Source: SAR92 clade bacterium H921
Lineage (GTDB): Bacteria; Pseudomonadota; Gammaproteobacteria; Pseudomonadales; Porticoccaceae
Assembly (NCBI GenBank): GCA_025153755.1
Contig: JAOALD010000001.1
Span: 620,001 to 684,000 of the forward strand
Length of the DNA: 64,000 nucleotides
Reading direction: 5' to 3'
Part shown: piece after piece, positions 5,547-31,788 of the stretch
Position numbering within the stretch: the stretch's first letter is position 1
Layout: each line of letters begins with the position of its first letter
Notes under the pieces: model-generated
What the model was told of the DNA's origin: nothing
What the model saw: only the letters and a program-made list of their open reading frames with translations
Databases searched by the model: none
Made by a program: the position numbers and the translations under genes

Positions 5547-5621
5547 TGGCTGGGGCGGGAGGATTCGAACCTCCGGTGCCGGGATCAAAACCCGGTGCCT
5601 TAACCACTTGGCCACGCCCCA
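5547..5621 (-). tRNA. tRNA-Gln (anticodon TTG)
   Basis: A 75-nt cloverleaf on the minus strand. The acceptor stem is TGGGGCG/CGCCCCA. The anticodon stem CCGGG/CCCGG encloses the loop TTTTGAT with anticodon TTG (reads CAA). The T arm is GGAGG-TTCGAAT-CCTCC, and CCA is encoded at 5547-5549. Its 5' 22 nt overlap the 3' end of ispE, and it is followed closely by prs, so the tRNA is probably processed out of an ispE-prs transcript. Confidence 0.97.
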
Positions 5622-24257: not shown

Positions 24258-24746
24258 TTACAATTTTACGATACCTTGGTCTGAACAGTTTGCCAATAGG
24301 TTGAGAATATTTTCGCCGTTGGGTAGAACCATATTAGGCTGCAAATCACTTAGTGGCGCTAACACAAATGCCCTTTCGTGCATTCTAGGATGAGGTACGG
24401 TTAACCGCTCACTTTTAATAGTTTGCCGATCGTAGAGTAAAATATCTAGATCTAGGGTTCTTGCGCCCCAACGAATTGTGCGAACGCGACCCTGCTCATG
24501 CTCTATGTGCTGGAGGTAGTCCAGAAGATCTAGGGCTGACATGTCGGTGTCAAGGCGGGCGGCGGCATTAATATAATCAGGCTGGTTTTCGGGGCCAATC
24601 GCTCGAGTTTGATAGCGTTGCGAGACTGCCATGAGGTTAATCATTGGGTGCTCAGAGATGGTTTTTAATGCTCGATCTAGCTGCCCTGCAGGGCCTGTTC
24701 CACGATCTTCTAGGTTGCTACCCAGCCCGATATATACATCAGCCAT
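24258..24746 (-). CDS. folK: 2-amino-4-hydroxy-6-hydroxymethyldihydropteridine pyrophosphokinase
   Basis: HPPK transfers pyrophosphate from ATP to the pterin in folate synthesis. From ATG 24746 the protein has 162 residues starting MADVYIGLGSN, the family's normal N-terminus. The signature is VRTIRWGARTLDLDILLYD. HPHPR-like VPHPRMHERAFVLAPL follows. The frame is open further upstream, but that part only mirrors pcnB. The start overlaps the pcnB stop by 8 bp (ATGGCTGA), indicating coupling. Confidence 0.95.
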   Translation of the reverse strand: MADVYIGLGSNLEDRGTGPAGQLDRALKTISEHPMINLMAVSQRYQTRAIGPENQPDYINAAARLDTDMSALDLLDYLQHIEHEQGRVRTIRWGARTLDLDILLYDRQTIKSERLTVPHPRMHERAFVLAPLSDLQPNMVLPNGENILNLLANCSDQGIVKL

Positions 24747-26100
24747 CAGTGAGCTGCCCTCGGGATGATCTAGGTTTGCGTCTACTTCGCCGCCTGGGAT
24801 TTTTGCCGGAATCACCCACAGCTCGGGCCATTTCTTCCCTCTGTTCCTCGCCGGCATTTTGATAATTAGTCCACCAGTCGCCAAGATTGTCTAGTTCTTC
24901 ACCGGCCTGCTCGCGGAGTAAAACAAAGTCGTAGGCTGCTCGAAAGCGTGGGTGTTCGACCAGGCGCTTGGCGCGATGCCCGCCTCGGCGCGGTAACAGT
25001 AGTTGTAAATCCCATATTTCTCGCATCGCAATAGTAAAGCGGCGCGGAATAGCAGTGATAGGTATCTGTTTGGCGATTACCTCCCCGGCCGCTTTACTGA
25101 GGGCATATGCCGGCGAGTTGCCACGATCTTGGTAATGAGCCGCGACTTTTTGCACTGCTGGCCATAGTAGCGCCGCGTAAATAAACGCCGGCGTAACGCG
25201 TTTTGAGCTACGAATACGTAAATCGGTATTAGTAAAGGCATGGTCAATAAGTTTGCTAGCTAGGCTATTTCTGTCGCTTATCATGCCACTTAGTTGTGGA
25301 ATCATTTGGGCAAACAAACCATATTCATAAAGTAGCCAAAATGTAGCGAGTCCCTGGCCACTCATAAACAATTTGAGACTTTCATCAAACAGGCGTGGCG
25401 GTGAAACGTGTTCAAGATTCACAGCCAGTTTGTGCATCGGCTTACTCGTGCGAGGCTCTATGCTGAAAGCCAGTTTGGCGGCAAAGCGAACCACCCGTAG
25501 CATACGCACAGGATCCTCACGAAACCTTGTTGCAGGATCACCCATAATACGAATCGTACGCTGTTCTATATCAGCCATGCCTCCAGCGAAGTCATGAATA
25601 CTATTGTCTCCTGGATCATAGTACATGGCGTTAATACTGAGATCACGGCGACTGGCATCGTCATTCAGACTGCCAAACACGTTGTCACGGGTAAGCATAC
25701 CGCTGTCACTCTGCAGACGATGTTTTTTTCTTGTATCACCGGATTTTGTATCGTTTGAGCGGAATGTTGTCACCTCAATAATCTCTCGACTAAATTGCAC
25801 ATGTACAATCTGGAAGCGGCGTCCAATAATGCGTGAGCGTCGAAATAATGCCTTTACCTCGGCTGGTTTGGCGTCAGTGGCCACATCAAAGTCTTTGGCC
25901 TTAAGACCAAGAAGTAGGTCGCGCACAGCGCCACCGACTACATAGGCCTCATATCCGGCGTCTTGTAAAACCGAAACGACCTTGCGAGCATCGCGGCTGA
26001 TCATTTTGGGAGTTAAAGAGTGATATTGGCTCGTGACGATAATTGGCTCGCCCGTGTCTCGCTTCGCCTTATCGAAGAACTTACTAATAATTTCCAGCAT
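24739..26100 (-). CDS. pcnB: Poly(A) polymerase I
   Basis: PcnB adds poly(A) tails that mark RNAs for decay. The 453-residue protein has the class II nucleotidyltransferase core VVGGAVRDLLLGLKAKDFDVATDAKP, RRSRIIGRRFQIVHV and RRDLSINAMYYDP, a neck helix FREDPVRMLRVVRFAAKL, and a basic C-terminal tail with RRRSRRKPRSSRG. It lies between folK and the CbrAB locus as in Pseudomonas, with the CrcZ-like RNA ending about 120 nt upstream of its start. Confidence 0.96.
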   Translation of the reverse strand: MLEIISKFFDKAKRDTGEPIIVTSQYHSLTPKMISRDARKVVSVLQDAGYEAYVVGGAVRDLLLGLKAKDFDVATDAKPAEVKALFRRSRIIGRRFQIVHVQFSREIIEVTTFRSNDTKSGDTRKKHRLQSDSGMLTRDNVFGSLNDDASRRDLSINAMYYDPGDNSIHDFAGGMADIEQRTIRIMGDPATRFREDPVRMLRVVRFAAKLAFSIEPRTSKPMHKLAVNLEHVSPPRLFDESLKLFMSGQGLATFWLLYEYGLFAQMIPQLSGMISDRNSLASKLIDHAFTNTDLRIRSSKRVTPAFIYAALLWPAVQKVAAHYQDRGNSPAYALSKAAGEVIAKQIPITAIPRRFTIAMREIWDLQLLLPRRGGHRAKRLVEHPRFRAAYDFVLLREQAGEELDNLGDWWTNYQNAGEEQREEMARAVGDSGKNPRRRSRRKPRSSRGQLTDG

Positions 26101-26219
26101 TTACAAGGTGTCGATAGATGGTTTAAAGGATTCAGTTTACCAGAGGATTGGCAACAGTGGAGAATTGGATTTTTATGCTCGCGCAGGAGACTATTCGGCA
26201 TTTTCGGGCTGCGTACAAA

Positions 26220-26251
26220 GTAAAAAGGGATTGCCCGAAGACAACCCCTTT
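26220..26251 (-). terminator. Rho-independent terminator with UUCG tetraloop
   Basis: On the minus strand AAAGGGGTTGTC pairs with GGCAATCCCTTT (12 bp including two G-U wobbles) around TTCG, giving the exceptionally stable cUUCGg cap, followed by TTAC and TTTG. It closes the small RNA and could also end cbrAB read-through. Confidence 0.85.
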
Positions 26252-26364
26252 CAATGGTTCTTAAAGTCCTAGCTCTAAAGCCGTACCCCTAGAACACTTT
26301 TGCAATCCATCCATTTCTTATTATTTTTTATTGTTGTTATTACTCAAGAAAATTTCTTGGTACG
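26220..26364 (-). ncRNA. Predicted CrcZ-like small RNA with A-rich Hfq/Crc-binding tract
   Basis: An about 140-nt unit sits between cbrB and pcnB, exactly where Pseudomonas encodes crcZ, and on the same strand. From 5' to 3' there is a small inverted repeat CAAGAAA/TTTCTTG (26345-26359), then a 27-nt A-rich tract (26315-26341) beginning AATAACAACAATAA and containing several overlapping AANAANAA registers, then an unstructured middle and the UUCG-capped terminator. CrcZ and CrcY of pseudomonads carry AANAANAA (CA) motifs that titrate Hfq/Crc and relieve catabolite repression. No conserved ORF fits inside. The RNA's existence is inferred from promoter, terminator and motif, and its identity from position and motif. 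It is shorter than P. aeruginosa CrcZ (about 400 nt). Confidence 0.65.
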
Positions 26365-26367
26365 ACC

Positions 26368-26395
26368 ATTCTAATTAGAAATACCTCAGCCACAA
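26368..26395 (-). promoter_or_regulatory. Promoter of the CrcZ-like RNA (sigma70-type, overlapping a degenerate sigma54-like site)
   Basis: On the minus strand TTGTGG, 16 nt, then TAGAAT gives a reasonable sigma70 promoter with a start near 26362. Overlapping it is TGGCTG-N5-TTTC. This has the exact spacing of a sigma54 site (TGGCAC-N5-TTGC), but the essential -12 GC has become TC. Both would start transcription at nearly the same place. Confidence 0.5.
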
Positions 26396-26483
26396 GTGTT
26401 TTTTAAGGTTTATTTTTCACTTCAGGACGATTTTGAATAACTGTTACTTTTTGAAACAAAGATTAACAAATAATCGCTGCATT

Positions 26484-27767
26484 TTAGGCTGAATCTGATT
26501 TTTTCCGGCTGATACCGAGTTTATTACGCCGCTCCCAAAGTGATTTACGGCTGATTCCAAGCTTTTGAGCAAGGGCTGTTTCACTCATATTTTCCTGATT
26601 TTCCAAGACAAAACTGGTGAAATAGTCCTCAAGGGACAGTCCTGCTGGTGCATCATTGCTCACCGCAGGCTTTGCAGGTTTAGGGTTAGCGTCATCATCC
26701 ACATGATCGTCTGTGCTAGCCATGCCTAGAGTACGCGCGCTTATGACCTGCCCAGGCTCAGACAGAATAGCGCCTTGATAGAGCATGTTTTGTAATTCAC
26801 GTACATTCCCCGGCCAGTTATAATCGACTAGTGCCTGCTGCGCGTCTGGGGAAATATCAAGGGCAAAACCAAGCTCGTTGGAGTACTGCTCGAGGAAATG
26901 TAGGGTTAACTTTGGGATATCTGTGGTTCTATGGCGCAGGGCAGGTACCTGGATGTTGACCACATTGAGGCTATAAAACAGATCCTTGCGGAATGTTCCA
27001 AGTTGGCTTAATGACTTTAAATCTAACCCAGTTGATGCGATATAGCGAATATTGCTGTGCTGCTCAATGGCTTGTATGGCCTGAGATTGCAAAGATTCAG
27101 GTAGCTCGCAAATATTGGCCAAAAATAATGTGCCGCCAGATTTTTCTGTGAGCTGTGCAAGTTGCCCAGAGAACTGCTGAGCAGTCACAGATGCGCAATT
27201 GATGGTTATCAGAGGTTGTCCAGCCATGACGCTAGCTCGATGAATAAGCTCGGCAATAATACGTTTGCCTGTCCCAGTCTCGCCCTTGATCAAAATAGAG
27301 GCTGAAGTCGGAGCCGCTTTATCTATGGTGCTCAACACTTTAAGGATCTCTGGGCTGCTGCCCATCAATACTTTATTTTCCGCTATTGCTAAGTTTATCT
27401 TTGGCTTTGTGATGTTTATTATACGTTTCACCGCCGAGAGCATCTCATCGTAGTCAAAGGGTTTTGAGATGTAGTCAGCTGCGCCCTGGCGCATAGTTTC
27501 AACCGCAGATCTTAGACTGGCATAGCTGGTCATCACCAATACGGGCACGCAACCTGCCGGATTAATAAGGTCCGTACCCGGACCGCCAGGTAGTCGCAGA
27601 TCGGTAATAATTAAATCAAAGCTACTGAGATTAAATGATTCACGGGCCGCCTTGACGCTGACGGCTTCGCTAACATCGTATTCGTGCCGTTCCAGTAATG
27701 TACGAAGAGACTGGCGGATAATGTCCTCGTCTTCAACAATCAGAATGCTTTTACTAGAGATAATCAT
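26484..27767 (-). CDS. cbrB: CbrB-type response regulator with degenerate sigma54-activator AAA+ domain
   Basis: From ATG 27767 the protein has 427 residues. A receiver domain (phospho-acceptor Asp56, SKPFDYDEML) is followed by an AAA+ domain with Walker A GETGTGKR at 162-169. The C-terminal helix-turn-helix ends LSLEDYFTSFVLENQ...LGISRKSLWERR, nearly identical in pattern to Pseudomonas CbrB. The AAA+ domain is crippled. Only 18 residues separate INCA (189-192) from GGTLFL (211-216), so the GAFTGA loop that contacts sigma54 is missing. The Walker B DE is A217-N218, and the second arginine of FRxDLYYRL is Ser266. It overlaps cbrA by 4 nt. It probably still binds DNA and phosphate but cannot act as a normal sigma54 activator. 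Confidence 0.92.
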   Translation of the reverse strand: MIISSKSILIVEDEDIIRQSLRTLLERHEYDVSEAVSVKAARESFNLSSFDLIITDLRLPGGPGTDLINPAGCVPVLVMTSYASLRSAVETMRQGAADYISKPFDYDEMLSAVKRIINITKPKINLAIAENKVLMGSSPEILKVLSTIDKAAPTSASILIKGETGTGKRIIAELIHRASVMAGQPLITINCASVTAQQFSGQLAQLTEKSGGTLFLANICELPESLQSQAIQAIEQHSNIRYIASTGLDLKSLSQLGTFRKDLFYSLNVVNIQVPALRHRTTDIPKLTLHFLEQYSNELGFALDISPDAQQALVDYNWPGNVRELQNMLYQGAILSEPGQVISARTLGMASTDDHVDDDANPKPAKPAVSNDAPAGLSLEDYFTSFVLENQENMSETALAQKLGISRKSLWERRNKLGISRKKSDSA

Positions 27768-30625
27768 AGGGGCGATGATAGTGGAAAACGAAGAGTCACA
27801 GTAGTGCCACATTGGCTATTTTCTGCCGGGCTTGAGATTGACACCTCGGCGCCTAACCGTTGCACCAGATTAAATACTACCCAGAGCCCGAGGCCGGTGC
27901 CCTGACCAGGCTCTTTCGAGGTTACAAAGGGTTCAAATAAACGCCCCGCAATATCTTCTTTAATGCCAGTGCCCGAATCGCTGATCGTAACTCGAATTTG
28001 CCCAGCTTCAGGTATTGCTTTGATAATAATTTGGCCGCCCATAGGGGAGGCATCGCGACCATTGCTTAGCAGGTTTAGAAAGACTTGGATCAGTTGATGG
28101 TAGTCACCGAGAATCACAAGTTGGTTGTCGATATCGCAGACAAATTCTACAGTAGGTGCTGGATTACTGAGGGCCAGCAACTGTATCGCTTCGTTGGCGG
28201 CATCATACAAATTGACCGGCTGCGCCGGTTTATGCGCCTTCTGGTCACCTCGTGAAAAATCGATTAATGACTGAACGATAAGGTTAATGCGCTCGGTCTG
28301 AGACAAGATATGCTGTGCTGACTGGGCTATTTGGTCGGGTTCAGTTTCATGTTGTAAATTTTGCGCAAGGCAGGCAATACCAGTTACCGGATTACCAATT
28401 TCGTGAGCAACTCCGGCCGCAAGCCTGCCCACAGATGCCAGCCTTTCGTTATCGATCGAATTCTGTATCAACGCCACAGACTGAGTTTGATCTTCAATTA
28501 GTAAAACAATATCTGTGGCCCCTTCGATATTTTGCTCAACCGATTTTTGCAGGCTGAACCAGCGGACCTGACCGTTTAGCTCAAGTCGAAGATTATCGAT
28601 ATTGGATTCGCCACTTTTGACAAAGGAGCCAATTGCACTGCGCCAGGGTTCGGAGAGGTCATTTATAAATCCGCCGGTCGCGGTTTCCGCGCTGATACTC
28701 GTATACTGCGCTATAGTGGCATTCCATTTAAGGACCTCGCCGGTTTGATCTGTAGATATAATACCTATGGGCAAGTTATCTAAAATCTCGCGATGGTGAA
28801 CCCGTAATTTATTGAGCTCACTTGCGATGCCGGTGAGACGGTTGCCATGAATGGCGAGCATGGATTCGATCAGATAAATATCATCGGGCTCTTTGTTTAT
28901 CCCCAGTTTAACCGGTATAGACTGCTGCATAATTCGGCTCGCGCATAGCACGCCGTAGCGCAGGTTTAAAGATGCGTTGATACTGTCGCGGATCTTGCGC
29001 AACGCTGCCGGCCTTATTTCCCCATAGTTGTAGTCAGTGGCTTGTAACGCCCGCATTATTTCATTTTCGGCGGCATCGCCGAGCACGCTGCTTAGGCTTT
29101 TATGCAATTCGCCCACAGACTTTTGGCTTATCTCGACACGAGCAGGAATATAAATGTTATCCGCCATGCACACAGCGGCATAGTAGTTTTCCTCATCGCT
29201 CATTTTGCCGTAGACAGAAAATATAATACTCAGGGTTATATTTAATAAAAGGGCTTCGATGGCCCAGATATTCCAGTTTTGCATACCAAAGTAGAGTTTT
29301 TCGTCCAGCCAGGGTACGAACAGGCCCCAGTCGCCGAATAATAGTGGTATCGCCAGGGTGATTAACCACAGGGACATGCCGGCAGTTAATCCAACAATAA
29401 AGCCAAGCCGATTAGCTTTGGGTATATAGATCACTGCGAGCATACCAGGAGTTAACTGAGCTAAGCCGCTAAGCCCCACTAGATAAAAGTCTGTGATACT
29501 GCGCCCCTTGACCACCAAACTAAGGAGTAAACAGGTAACCAGCAACGTTGCAGCGATGATCATTTGACGATTATTAATCCAACTACCCAAGGTTTGTTGC
29601 TTGGCTAGATCTTTATCCGGCAATACAAAGCTATTAAGGGTTACCTTCGAGACTGTCAACGTTAGACTGCAGATTAGTGCTACCGCCAGCAAAATAATGC
29701 ACGCGGCACCAAGGCCTGCAATAACTGGGTTTTGTGTGAGGGCGGGTAAGGCAAATAGGTACTCCTGCAGTGGCGACGATGACTGCATAGCAATACCACT
29801 CCAGAGCATCGGAAATACTGGGATACAAGCTAGCAGGACGAGCAGAGGATAGGCCCAGGCGGTGGTGCTAGCCTGGCGATCAGAGATATTTTCAGAGACT
29901 AAAATACTAAAGTTAATGGGTAGAGCAAAACTTGCAGTCAAAAAAATGGTAAGCAGACTATAGGACGAGTCCATACGCTGCACAATAAAGCGCTGGCCAC
30001 TGGTTACAACCCAGTCATTCATTTGTGTAATGCTACCGAAGACTGAGTGAATAGAGGTCCAGGCTGCGAGACCGAGGGCGGGTATCAGTAGTAATCCGGC
30101 CGCCGCCATAATCCAGCTTAGGTGGTTGGCTACACCAACCTGAATAGAGTGCCGATTGAGAAAAATAACGATAATGGCAAGCAGGGGTAGACTGTATACA
30201 GTCTGGCCAATCAAGAAGCTAACCACTGAGTTAATGGCTAGTAATTGAGCCAAAATTAATGGTATTGCAATCATAATCAAGCTAATGCAGGCAGCAGTGG
30301 CGACGCCTTTCCCGCGGTATCTAAAGGTTAAGAAATCTACCGGTGTGGCAAAGCGAATGATTTGACTGAGCCTACGAATTGGCAAGAATATCAATGGCGA
30401 AAAAATAAAGATAAGTGTAAAGCCAATCAGCGCCAGAATTATGCTGTAACCATAGCGACCAGCCATTTCGATAGAACCCATCGCTAGCAGCACACCGGTG
30501 CCGGAAAATAAAGCTAGCACGAGTATCAGGTGGTTGTTACTGCTAGCGCGCTGCGCGAGAAGTTTGGTTGCTAGTCCCGCCGCAAAAAGTATAGATATAG
30601 TTGATAGAATTATTTCAGGATTCAT
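27764..30625 (-). CDS. cbrA: CbrA-type sensor histidine kinase with SLC5-like transporter domain
   Basis: A 953-residue sensor from ATG 30625. The N-terminal half (to about residue 475) is a sodium/solute symporter-like membrane domain with 12-13 helices. A linker and a PAS domain (LDNLPIGIISTDQTGEVLKWN) follow, then a HisKA domain with H741 in GVAHEIGNPVTGI, and an HATPase domain with FLNLLSNGRDAS, SDSGTGI and GTGLGLWVV. CbrA senses carbon/nitrogen state or histidine in pseudomonads. Its start overlaps the small gene upstream by 11 bp, matching the cbrX-cbrA coupling known there, and its TGA overlaps the cbrB ATG. Confidence 0.93.
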   Translation of the reverse strand: MNPEIILSTISILFAAGLATKLLAQRASSNNHLILVLALFSGTGVLLAMGSIEMAGRYGYSIILALIGFTLIFIFSPLIFLPIRRLSQIIRFATPVDFLTFRYRGKGVATAACISLIMIAIPLILAQLLAINSVVSFLIGQTVYSLPLLAIIVIFLNRHSIQVGVANHLSWIMAAAGLLLIPALGLAAWTSIHSVFGSITQMNDWVVTSGQRFIVQRMDSSYSLLTIFLTASFALPINFSILVSENISDRQASTTAWAYPLLVLLACIPVFPMLWSGIAMQSSSPLQEYLFALPALTQNPVIAGLGAACIILLAVALICSLTLTVSKVTLNSFVLPDKDLAKQQTLGSWINNRQMIIAATLLVTCLLLSLVVKGRSITDFYLVGLSGLAQLTPGMLAVIYIPKANRLGFIVGLTAGMSLWLITLAIPLLFGDWGLFVPWLDEKLYFGMQNWNIWAIEALLLNITLSIIFSVYGKMSDEENYYAAVCMADNIYIPARVEISQKSVGELHKSLSSVLGDAAENEIMRALQATDYNYGEIRPAALRKIRDSINASLNLRYGVLCASRIMQQSIPVKLGINKEPDDIYLIESMLAIHGNRLTGIASELNKLRVHHREILDNLPIGIISTDQTGEVLKWNATIAQYTSISAETATGGFINDLSEPWRSAIGSFVKSGESNIDNLRLELNGQVRWFSLQKSVEQNIEGATDIVLLIEDQTQSVALIQNSIDNERLASVGRLAAGVAHEIGNPVTGIACLAQNLQHETEPDQIAQSAQHILSQTERINLIVQSLIDFSRGDQKAHKPAQPVNLYDAANEAIQLLALSNPAPTVEFVCDIDNQLVILGDYHQLIQVFLNLLSNGRDASPMGGQIIIKAIPEAGQIRVTISDSGTGIKEDIAGRLFEPFVTSKEPGQGTGLGLWVVFNLVQRLGAEVSISSPAENSQCGTTVTLRFPLSSPL

Positions 30626-30791
30626 CGAATTTACTACCGCGCTGCACAATATAGGATGCAAACACCACCATAGACCAAACCACAAAAGGTCTAAACCAGT
30701 TGCCATCCGGTTCAACGGCCCACTGTGTAGCCAGTGGGAAAACTACAGTGCAGAGCAGTAAAAGAGTCGCGACAAGTCTGTAATTGAGCAT
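30615..30791 (-). CDS. cbrX: Small membrane protein CbrX-like, upstream of cbrA
   Basis: A 58-residue frame with two hydrophobic segments (VATLLLLCTVVFPLATQW and FRPFVVWSMVVFASYIV) and a charged end QRGSKFDES. Its stop lies 11 bp inside cbrA. In Pseudomonas a small membrane ORF, cbrX, is translationally coupled to cbrA at the same position; identity here rests on position and the two-helix layout. The start is uncertain: ATG 30791 lacks a Shine-Dalgarno, and a GTG at 30875 is in frame. Confidence 0.65.
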   Translation of the reverse strand: MLNYRLVATLLLLCTVVFPLATQWAVEPDGNWFRPFVVWSMVVFASYIVQRGSKFDES

Positions 30792-30879: not shown

Positions 30880-31788
30880 TTAATCACTATTAAGCTGGTT
30901 GTCGGGCGCGTCTAGTCCCATGGTGCGTGGAATTTTCGCTAACGACCAGTGTTCTATGCCCCATTGGATTATCTCGGCAACGGAGAGATTTGCTATTTCG
31001 GCCGGAGGTTCTTGCTGCAACCAAACTAGGGCAGCATAAAGATTATTGGCTTCGTGCCCTTTGCGCAATGTAGCGGCGCGATTCTGTTTGCTGAGTTTTT
31101 GACCATTATTATTTAATGCTACTGGCACATGCATATACACAGGCTGGGGGTAATCTAGACATTGCTGTATGTAGAGTTGCCTGGGTGTTGAATCGAGCAA
31201 ATCTGAGCCACGCAAAACATGCGTAATGTTCTGATAGTAGTCGTCTACCACCACGGCTAGCTGGTAAGACACCAGGCCGTCACGCCGACGTAGAACAAAG
31301 TCTCCTATTGCGGCGGCCAAACTCTGTTCATAGTGGCCCATAATAGAGTCTGTAAATGCTAGATGCTCAGAATTTCGCTTGCCTAATTTGAGACGCATGG
31401 CTCTATTGTCGGACGCAAGTTGCAAATCGCGGCAGTGGCCATCATAAATGCCTCCCAGACTCCCTATCCGCTGTCGACTGCACTGGCAAAAATAAGTCAG
31501 GTCCTGTTGTTGCAACTGGTCCGCAGCTGCCAAATAGCGACCTAGGTGCTCACTTTGATAGAGGACAGAGTCGTCCCAGAGTAAGCCATGGGCATCAAGT
31601 TGATGCAAGATGGTGGCGCTGGCGCCCGGCACCTCTCTGGGAGGATCTATATCCTCAATTCGCACCAACCATCGACCCTGACGCTGTTTGATATCCAGAT
31701 AGCTAGCCACAGCACTGATGAGGGAGCCAAAATGCAGAGGACCCGTAGGAGAGGGGGCAAAGCGCCCGGCACTGCGATAGTCTGGCAT
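30880..31788 (-). CDS. gluQ: Glutamyl-Q tRNA(Asp) synthetase
   Basis: GluQ charges glutamate onto the queuosine base of tRNA-Asp. The 302-residue protein is the truncated GluRS catalytic core without an anticodon domain. It has RFAPSPTGPLHFGSL (HIGH-like), a zinc site in YFCQCSRQRI...YDGHC, and KLSKQN (KMSKS-like). It follows dksA by about 57 nt, the conserved dksA-gluQ order. Confidence 0.96.
   Translation of the reverse strand: MPDYRSAGRFAPSPTGPLHFGSLISAVASYLDIKQRQGRWLVRIEDIDPPREVPGASATILHQLDAHGLLWDDSVLYQSEHLGRYLAAADQLQQQDLTYFCQCSRQRIGSLGGIYDGHCRDLQLASDNRAMRLKLGKRNSEHLAFTDSIMGHYEQSLAAAIGDFVLRRRDGLVSYQLAVVVDDYYQNITHVLRGSDLLDSTPRQLYIQQCLDYPQPVYMHVPVALNNNGQKLSKQNRAATLRKGHEANNLYAALVWLQQEPPAEIANLSVAEIIQWGIEHWSLAKIPRTMGLDAPDNQLNSD

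Follow-up and report, generated by a model that had tools for sequence, protein, structure and literature searches.

CrcZ is described as a decoy that binds the distal face of Hfq through A-rich stretches and titrates it; in P. aeruginosa, a change of Hfq Tyr25 to Asp rendered binding of a CrcZ fragment defective (passages of PMC4063720). For the response regulator CbrB, TGTTAC/GTAACA half-sites have been published (in an excerpt of PMC6296734), and passages of a review and a research paper present CbrAB as restricted to Pseudomonas and Azotobacter (PMC8871633, PMC6296734). A second precedent comes from the NtrC proteins of R. capsulatus and Caulobacter, which lack the GAFTGA motif and are reported to be active at sigma70 promoters, the R. 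capsulatus protein reportedly needing phosphorylation (available portion of PMC10274813). Searches of open-licence papers returned none treating SAR92 together with Hfq and a small RNA. Among the open-licence matches listed, none described the RNA of the present group and none, at the level of titles and opening lines of abstracts, placed CrcZ outside Pseudomonas and Azotobacter; an Acinetobacter paper among them has CrcZ in its reference list only.

Here we analyze a 64,000-nt stretch of the genome of SAR92 clade bacterium H921 (referred to as the window), in which a reading from the sequence only had pointed to a CrcZ-like RNA between cbrB and pcnB. The bacterium belongs to the Porticoccaceae (SAR92/HTCC2207 group). 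Genera of this family are labelled g (g1 is the genus of the window bacterium), families of the order f, genomes G and loci L. In our best explanation, the locus encodes a CrcZ-related decoy that would act on Hfq only and would be transcribed from a sigma70-type promoter with the assistance of CbrB; we give this explanation as a whole a probability of about 0.7.

Organization of the cbrB–pcnB locus

The genes are arranged on the minus strand in the order cbrA–cbrB–RNA–pcnB, with cbrB ending at 26484 and pcnB starting at 26100, so the RNA occupies the slot between cbrB and pcnB on their strand, as CrcZ does. The RNA unit with its promoter extends from 26395 to 26222 (minus strand) and consists of a –35/–10 pair, a 5′ hairpin, a tract of AAN triplets and a UUCG-capped terminator. 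The following features were assigned:

30880–31788, minus strand: gene that we take to be gluQ; it borders the RNA upstream in slots without cbrAB
27764–30715, minus strand: cbrA-like kinase (PAS, HisKA, HATPase), named cbrA from position and domain order
26484–27767, minus strand: cbrB-like response regulator with REC (Asp56), AAA+ and HTH
26442–26458, minus strand: putative CbrB site, palindrome TGTTTCAAAAAGTAACA, by sequence comparison with the half-sites published for CbrB
26390–26395, minus strand: –35 hexamer TTGTGG, from promoter scoring
26368–26373, minus strand: –10 hexamer TAGAAT, from promoter scoring, 16-nt spacer to the –35
about 26361, minus strand: RNA start, position inferred
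26343–26361, minus strand: 5′ hairpin ACCAAG..CTTGAG, from the fold, 5 of 6 pairs changed on both sides
26314–26341, minus strand: A-rich tract AATAACAACAATAAAAAATAATAAGAAA, 28 nt, six consecutive AAN triplets followed by UAAUAAGAAA
26302–26312, minus strand: conserved element GGAUGGAUUGC, from RNA alignment and exact-word counts
26253–26297, minus strand: second stem-loop, from the fold, 4 pairs counted in covariation
26222–26252, minus strand: intrinsic terminator, 13 pairs (G–U allowed), UUCG loop of 4, U tail
24739–26100, minus strand: pcnB (TIGR01942, 520.7 bits, cutoff 305.65)

The predicted RNA is about 139 nt long and has a single A-rich block, with three AANAANAA words counted. It is indeed shorter than CrcZ and has one compact tract, as the sequence-only reading had it; the promoter, A tract and terminator which that reading placed on the cbrB strand are all present and conserved in the slot, and the helices covary. 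The length of the tract (26341–26314) is 28 nt and not 27; similarly, the terminator stem is capped by UUCG but has 13 pairs, with G–U allowed, in place of 12 bp. A tRNA at 5550–5621 is the sole Rfam match of the window at gathering level.

The RNA gene is conserved beyond chance

The pattern of six AAN triplets occurs once in the 64-kb window compared to a mean of 0.03 after shuffling (at least one occurrence in 2 of 100 shuffles), and the AAN run of the window gap was reached by 11 of 2000 shuffles of the same gap. The fold energy of the RNA lies below that of all 200 shuffles (z –3.76), with a contribution from the terminator. A consensus scan over 1.5 kb found one terminator-like site, where shuffles gave 1.2 on average; the TTGTGG/TAGAAT pair was not among its sites, and another weak –35/–10 pair was placed within the RNA (26347–26320). 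The –35/–10 promoter score of the window corresponds to z 0.6. Since neither the promoter nor the terminator alone is beyond chance, the case for both rests on conservation.

With CbrB as a query, 60 of 76 related genomes (E ≤ 1e-60) and 64 of 112 family genomes (E ≤ 1e-50) were matched, and many species turned out to have this slot. AAN runs of at least five are present in 65 of 103 family gaps, 1.17 being expected by shuffling, although the gaps are not independent by descent. An alignment of 26 RNAs of g1 was used both for covariation analysis and for building a covariance model, R1. In this alignment 14 of 22 pairs are changed on both sides and 92.9% of cells pair; the structure was derived from the same sequences, which inflates the percentage paired but can hardly explain the double changes. 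The terminator pairs covary as well. The covariation score of 0.467 (0.092 to 0.166 in slid versions) was reached by none of 500 shuffles. R1 found the gene in 37 of 50 congeners (E ≤ 2.1e-8), 11 of them outside the training set (E 5.9e-20 to 2.1e-8). The compact form is shared by congeners and not special to one genome. At all 20 further RNA places fetched after the R1 search pcnB lies downstream on the same strand.

Comparison of the gap in relatives, as suggested in the sequence-only reading, showed the A tract and promoter to be conserved along with the flanking genes, the exception being nine congeners, HTCC2207 included, that have both flanks and a CbrB without the GAFTGA loop (hereafter loopless) and have lost the RNA. 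It was lost too in G104 and G111 of g39. A coding function was rejected because the longest ATG/GTG frame ranges between 0 and 44 codons among 37 g1 RNAs. A real RNA gene in the cbrB–pcnB slot is supported. Two tandem copies ahead of pcnB were located with R1 in four of seven g40 genomes (G116, G121, G117 and G118; loci L115, L116, L139 and L140); these genomes have Crc, and their slot contains no cbrB.

The position between cbrB and pcnB on the same strand would also suit a pcnB leader or attenuator, or the 3′-terminal part of the cbrB transcript, in place of a separate RNA, and read-through from PcbrB into crcZ has been reported in Pseudomonas (passages of PMC8871633). However, the unit has a promoter-like element and a terminator of its own, an extended –10-like sequence (judged by eye) precedes pcnB at 26144–26134, and the RNA is not simply the cbrB 3′ end because it persists in slots without cbrAB. 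We regard such an origin as highly improbable.

Relation of the window RNA to CrcZ

Judged by the Rfam model itself, the window RNA does not belong to CrcZ: RF01675 gave no match in the window at the gathering score and none at E ≤ 10 in the gap. Seven sub-threshold Rfam matches in the gap at a loose threshold (GibS with E 0.97, snoRNAs and others) were taken as chance. The same slot in a Pseudomonas-type genome (L041) matches Rfam CrcZ at 306.8 bits, the sole match among 20 loci.

Family members with a normal, sigma54-type cbrB have RNAs with AAN tracts and a –24/–12 promoter. In 112 family genomes R1 matched RNAs in place in g36, g39 and g41, with E from 1.6e-5 to 1.6e-3 (per genome, under a rough calibration), and gave no match to the RNAs of g32, g33, g38 and g42. 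The word GGATGGATTGC is found exactly in 10 of 13 g39 RNAs and in the single RNAs of g41 and g36, and is absent from those of g33, g38 and g42. Thus, the cross-matches of R1 and the shared GGATGGATTGC indicate common descent in place of the window RNA and the RNAs of loop-bearing relatives, in line with the original description of a CrcZ-like RNA in this slot. Such RNAs are not unusual outside Pseudomonas: of the first 24 loop-bearing loci read in other families, 20 have an AAN run of at least four after cbrB. The best reading of these comparisons is that Porticoccaceae possess a putative CrcZ-derived Hfq decoy of about 139 nt.

The element GGAUGGAUUGC is unpaired, common to several genera and contains two GGA words. 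Such words could suit CsrA/RsmA or serve as a pairing seed. The exact element occurs in 16 of 37 g1 and 10 of 13 g39 RNAs and in the single RNAs of g41 and g36. A pure decoy leaves its conservation unexplained, which counts against our best explanation. An ordinary trans-acting small RNA, in which the A tract would merely recruit Hfq and the GGAUGGAUUGC region would pair with target mRNAs, fits a conservation over g1, g39, g41 and g36 that is deeper than expected of a spacer, and its U-rich terminator is typical. Yet the exact element is absent from the read RNAs of nine genera (g31, g33, g34, g35, g37, g38, g40, g42 and g43) and from 20 of 20 loci in other families, whereas the AAN tract persists, and homologues with several A tracts better match titration. 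We therefore consider a trans-acting RNA rather unlikely and retain the Hfq decoy.

A predicted –35/–10 pair in place of the –24/–12 promoter

CrcZ-type sigma54 promoters have the form GG-N10-GC, and we defined a strict –24/–12 pattern as TGGCA[CT]N6TGC. Among the 44 loci whose CbrB is looped, 36 have it and 39 have a relaxed pattern. Five of the eight loop loci without the strict pattern also lack the relaxed one; in four of these five pcnB was not found or there is no A run of 4, and the fifth is L051. None of the 75 loci that combine an AAN run of at least four with a CbrB that is loopless, absent or reduced to REC and HTH (mini-CbrB) has the strict pattern, nor does the window gap or any of the 29 loopless family loci with the RNA. 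The relaxed pattern in six loop-free loci with the RNA was taken as chance. No weight is placed on a Fisher value for this contrast, since it takes no account of descent.

The assignment of two genomes bears on these counts. G125 (L143) has a mini-CbrB, yet also a perfect –24/–12 promoter and Crc; because its AAN run is only 3, it stands outside the 75, and including it gives 1 of 76. Either the deletion is very recent or the assembly is at fault. In G079 (L088), first scored as loopless, cbrB is split over two frames with GAFTGA in the other frame, so the locus is counted in the loop class; –24/–12 is retained there.

The pattern TTGNNN-N16-TA[ACG]AAT is the top site in 16 of 25 scored loopless g1 loci. 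With a score whose weights were set by hand and which is weak to modest on single sequences, the mean best –35/–10 value was 9.35 for 29 loopless loci, 10.93 for 7 mini-CbrB loci and 5.57 for 13 loop loci; cbrB-less loci gave means of 9.19 (15 loci) and 8.50 (16 loci). By eye, G108 and G113 show TTGACA where relatives show TTGGCA, as if one promoter had been converted into the other. The predicted promoter of the window RNA is sigma70-like and not of the sigma54 kind.

CbrB has lost its sigma54-related parts

The window gene has the features of a CbrB orthologue, namely the receiver Asp, a C-terminal HTH and synteny. Seven further, weaker CbrB matches occur in the same genome (L002–L008), the best-scoring with 30% identity. 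REC Asp56 and the HTH are present in the window protein, and the AAA+ domain is without the GAFTGA loop, the second loop and the Walker-B DE pair, with LFLANI instead of LFLDEI. GAFTGA and the Walker-B acids are required for activating sigma54; their loss had escaped the sequence-only reading, as had the sigma70-like promoter and the absence of Crc (see below). All 38 AAA+-bearing CbrBs of g1 and g37 are without GAFTGA and without the DE pair, two g37 proteins retaining the D. None of the 39 looped CbrBs compared (15 from the family, 24 from other families) has lost the pair. The second AAA+ loop is shortened in all ten loopless CbrBs aligned.

Erosion of the AAA+ domain, together with the loss of the RNA in the nine congeners, G104 and G111, might be read as decay, with CbrB function lost, the promoter drifted and the RNA disappearing. 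Compensatory changes in the helices and a –35/–10 pair conserved in position argue against a relic. So do the presence of Asp56 in 38 of 38 loopless CbrBs, the invariance of this residue and most HTH columns in an alignment of 14 CbrBs, and the retention of an AAN run of at least four in 35 of 37 family slots that have no cbrB match and gluQ upstream. Decay is, to our mind, very unlikely, and a working decoy gene remains the preferred reading.

The mini-CbrB, from which AAA+ is gone, was found in nine family genomes: five belong to g1 (one of them, G018, is assembled in a single contig), three to g43 and one, G125, to g41. A PcnB tree of 115 sequences unites g37, g31, g1 and g43 (support 0.99), so loop loss in these genera may be a single event; judged by eye from the tree, both the mini-CbrB and the loss of cbrAB originated several more times.

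Of the 155 genomes examined in the order, 139 have a CbrB-like match (E ≤ 1e-95), and ten of these loci, mostly picked for short spans, were read. Loop loss was seen in f43 (three genomes read), f40 (G150, G180) and f15 (G257); looped relatives are G229 in f40 and, in f15, G060 of the same genus as G257. The independence of the three families is judged from family membership, to which f15 and f40 add the looped relative within the family. The A-rich RNA is present and –24/–12 absent in the two readable f43 slots and in G257. Loop loss and –24/–12 loss are thus seen together in three groups, the Porticoccaceae clade, f43 and one f15 genome. As the loopless CbrBs of f43 and G257 retain the Walker-B DE, only loop loss accompanies promoter loss in all groups. 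In G150 (L237) the stop of the loopless cbrB directly abuts pcnB, and the intergenic RNA is gone.

The putative CbrB site of the window, TGTTTC-N5-GTAACA, is one base off TGTTAC in its first half. Of 38 loopless loci, 14 have the palindrome, which lies 115–119 nt before the A tract in 12 cases and about 131 and 141 nt before it in the other two; the remaining 24 and all nine mini-CbrB loci are without it. Looped relatives have it in 1 of 15 cases in the family and 1 of 24 in the order, with scattered half-sites in 15 of 15 and, elsewhere, in 23 of 24. Because the palindrome is missing from most loopless and all mini-CbrB loci and rare in looped relatives, control by CbrB is uncertain; in a large part of the clade the RNA may be controlled otherwise or not at all.

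Crc and Hfq

Crc was not found in the genome of the window bacterium, which is 98% complete; the one candidate, L070, was rejected, as it is exonuclease III. The sequestration of Hfq/Crc originally proposed, and with it a relief of Hfq–Crc repression as by CrcZ, therefore cannot apply to the window RNA. A g39 Crc (best PDB match 4jg3, 2e-67) used as a query in the 112 family genomes gave full matches (at least 309 bits) in g32, g33, g34, g35, g36, g38, g40, g41, g42 and 12 of 17 g39 genomes. In g1, g37, g31 and g43 the best match is at most 36.3 bits, which is the level of exonuclease III. Four genomes of the looped genus g39 (G104, G109, G110, G111) gave no Crc match and G106 a contig-edge piece only. 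Outside the family the matches are weak in f43 (at most 40.2 bits), ambiguous in f40 (89–100 bits) and at 190 bits in G257. Crc loss thus accompanies loop loss in two groups and not in all, the loop in f15 having been lost without it. The Hfq of the window bacterium matches that of P. aeruginosa (1u1s, 5.5e-40), with Tyr25 replaced by Phe. This replacement counts against our best explanation, as do the missing Rfam CrcZ match, the uneven presence of the palindrome, the nine congeners that lost the RNA and the modest promoter score.

Proposed mode of action and comparison with known systems

We infer that the locus gives rise to a small RNA of about 139 nt sharing an ancestor with CrcZ, in which a single-stranded (AAN)6 tract would sit between the 5′ hairpin and two 3′ hairpins. 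The housekeeping (sigma70-type) polymerase would transcribe it, the –35/–10 pair having probably replaced an ancestral –24/–12 promoter. In its CbrA-phosphorylated form, CbrB of the window bacterium and its closest relatives probably continues to bind the palindrome and to help the sigma70 polymerase; without GAFTGA it may work like the NtrC of R. capsulatus. About one Hfq hexamer, and no more than two, would be bound by the tract at the distal face, and Hfq would be titrated off A-rich mRNA sites. According to the 18-nt rule, one A-rich block of this size suffices for one hexamer. Because Crc is gone, the RNA would act through Hfq alone, unlike CrcZ.

For the order, we lean towards a history in which one RNA gene moved from sigma54 to sigma70 several times. 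Each move would have come with loss of the activator loop, sometimes followed by excision of AAA+ or cbrAB; in two groups Crc would have gone as well. On this view, what is conserved at the core of the CrcZ system would be titration of Hfq by the RNA and not the CbrAB signal or Crc. The circuit appears to have been rebuilt around one RNA, with promoter, activator and Crc changed or gone, and its graded states over the order form a natural series: the sigma54 promoter and the AAA+ activator are taken apart, and the RNA survives. Whether one A-rich site is enough for an Hfq decoy to function in the absence of Crc can be tested here.

The RNA is of a known kind; its form and its regulatory setting are new. 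With CrcZ (RF01675), CrcY and CrcX of Pseudomonas and Azotobacter it shares A-rich Hfq-type motifs, a terminator and upstream CbrB-like half-sites, and with CrcZ only, the cbrB–pcnB slot and strand. It differs from CrcZ in its length, about 139 nt versus 407 nt, and in having one compact tract versus six A-rich stretches (CrcZ values from passages of PMC4063720). Further differences are the 5′ hairpin, the sigma70-like promoter, the lack of an Rfam match and the lack of Crc in the genome. As in the GAFTGA-less NtrC proteins, an NtrC-type regulator has lost its sigma54-contact loop; here, however, the regulator is CbrB, the Walker-B pair is lost as well in g1 and g37, a matching switch of the target promoter is seen, and some relatives are without the whole AAA+ domain. 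RegA, PrrA and ActR are two-domain response regulators made of REC and a Fis-type HTH. The mini-CbrB resembles them in domain layout, but its origin from a three-domain protein can be seen within a single family.
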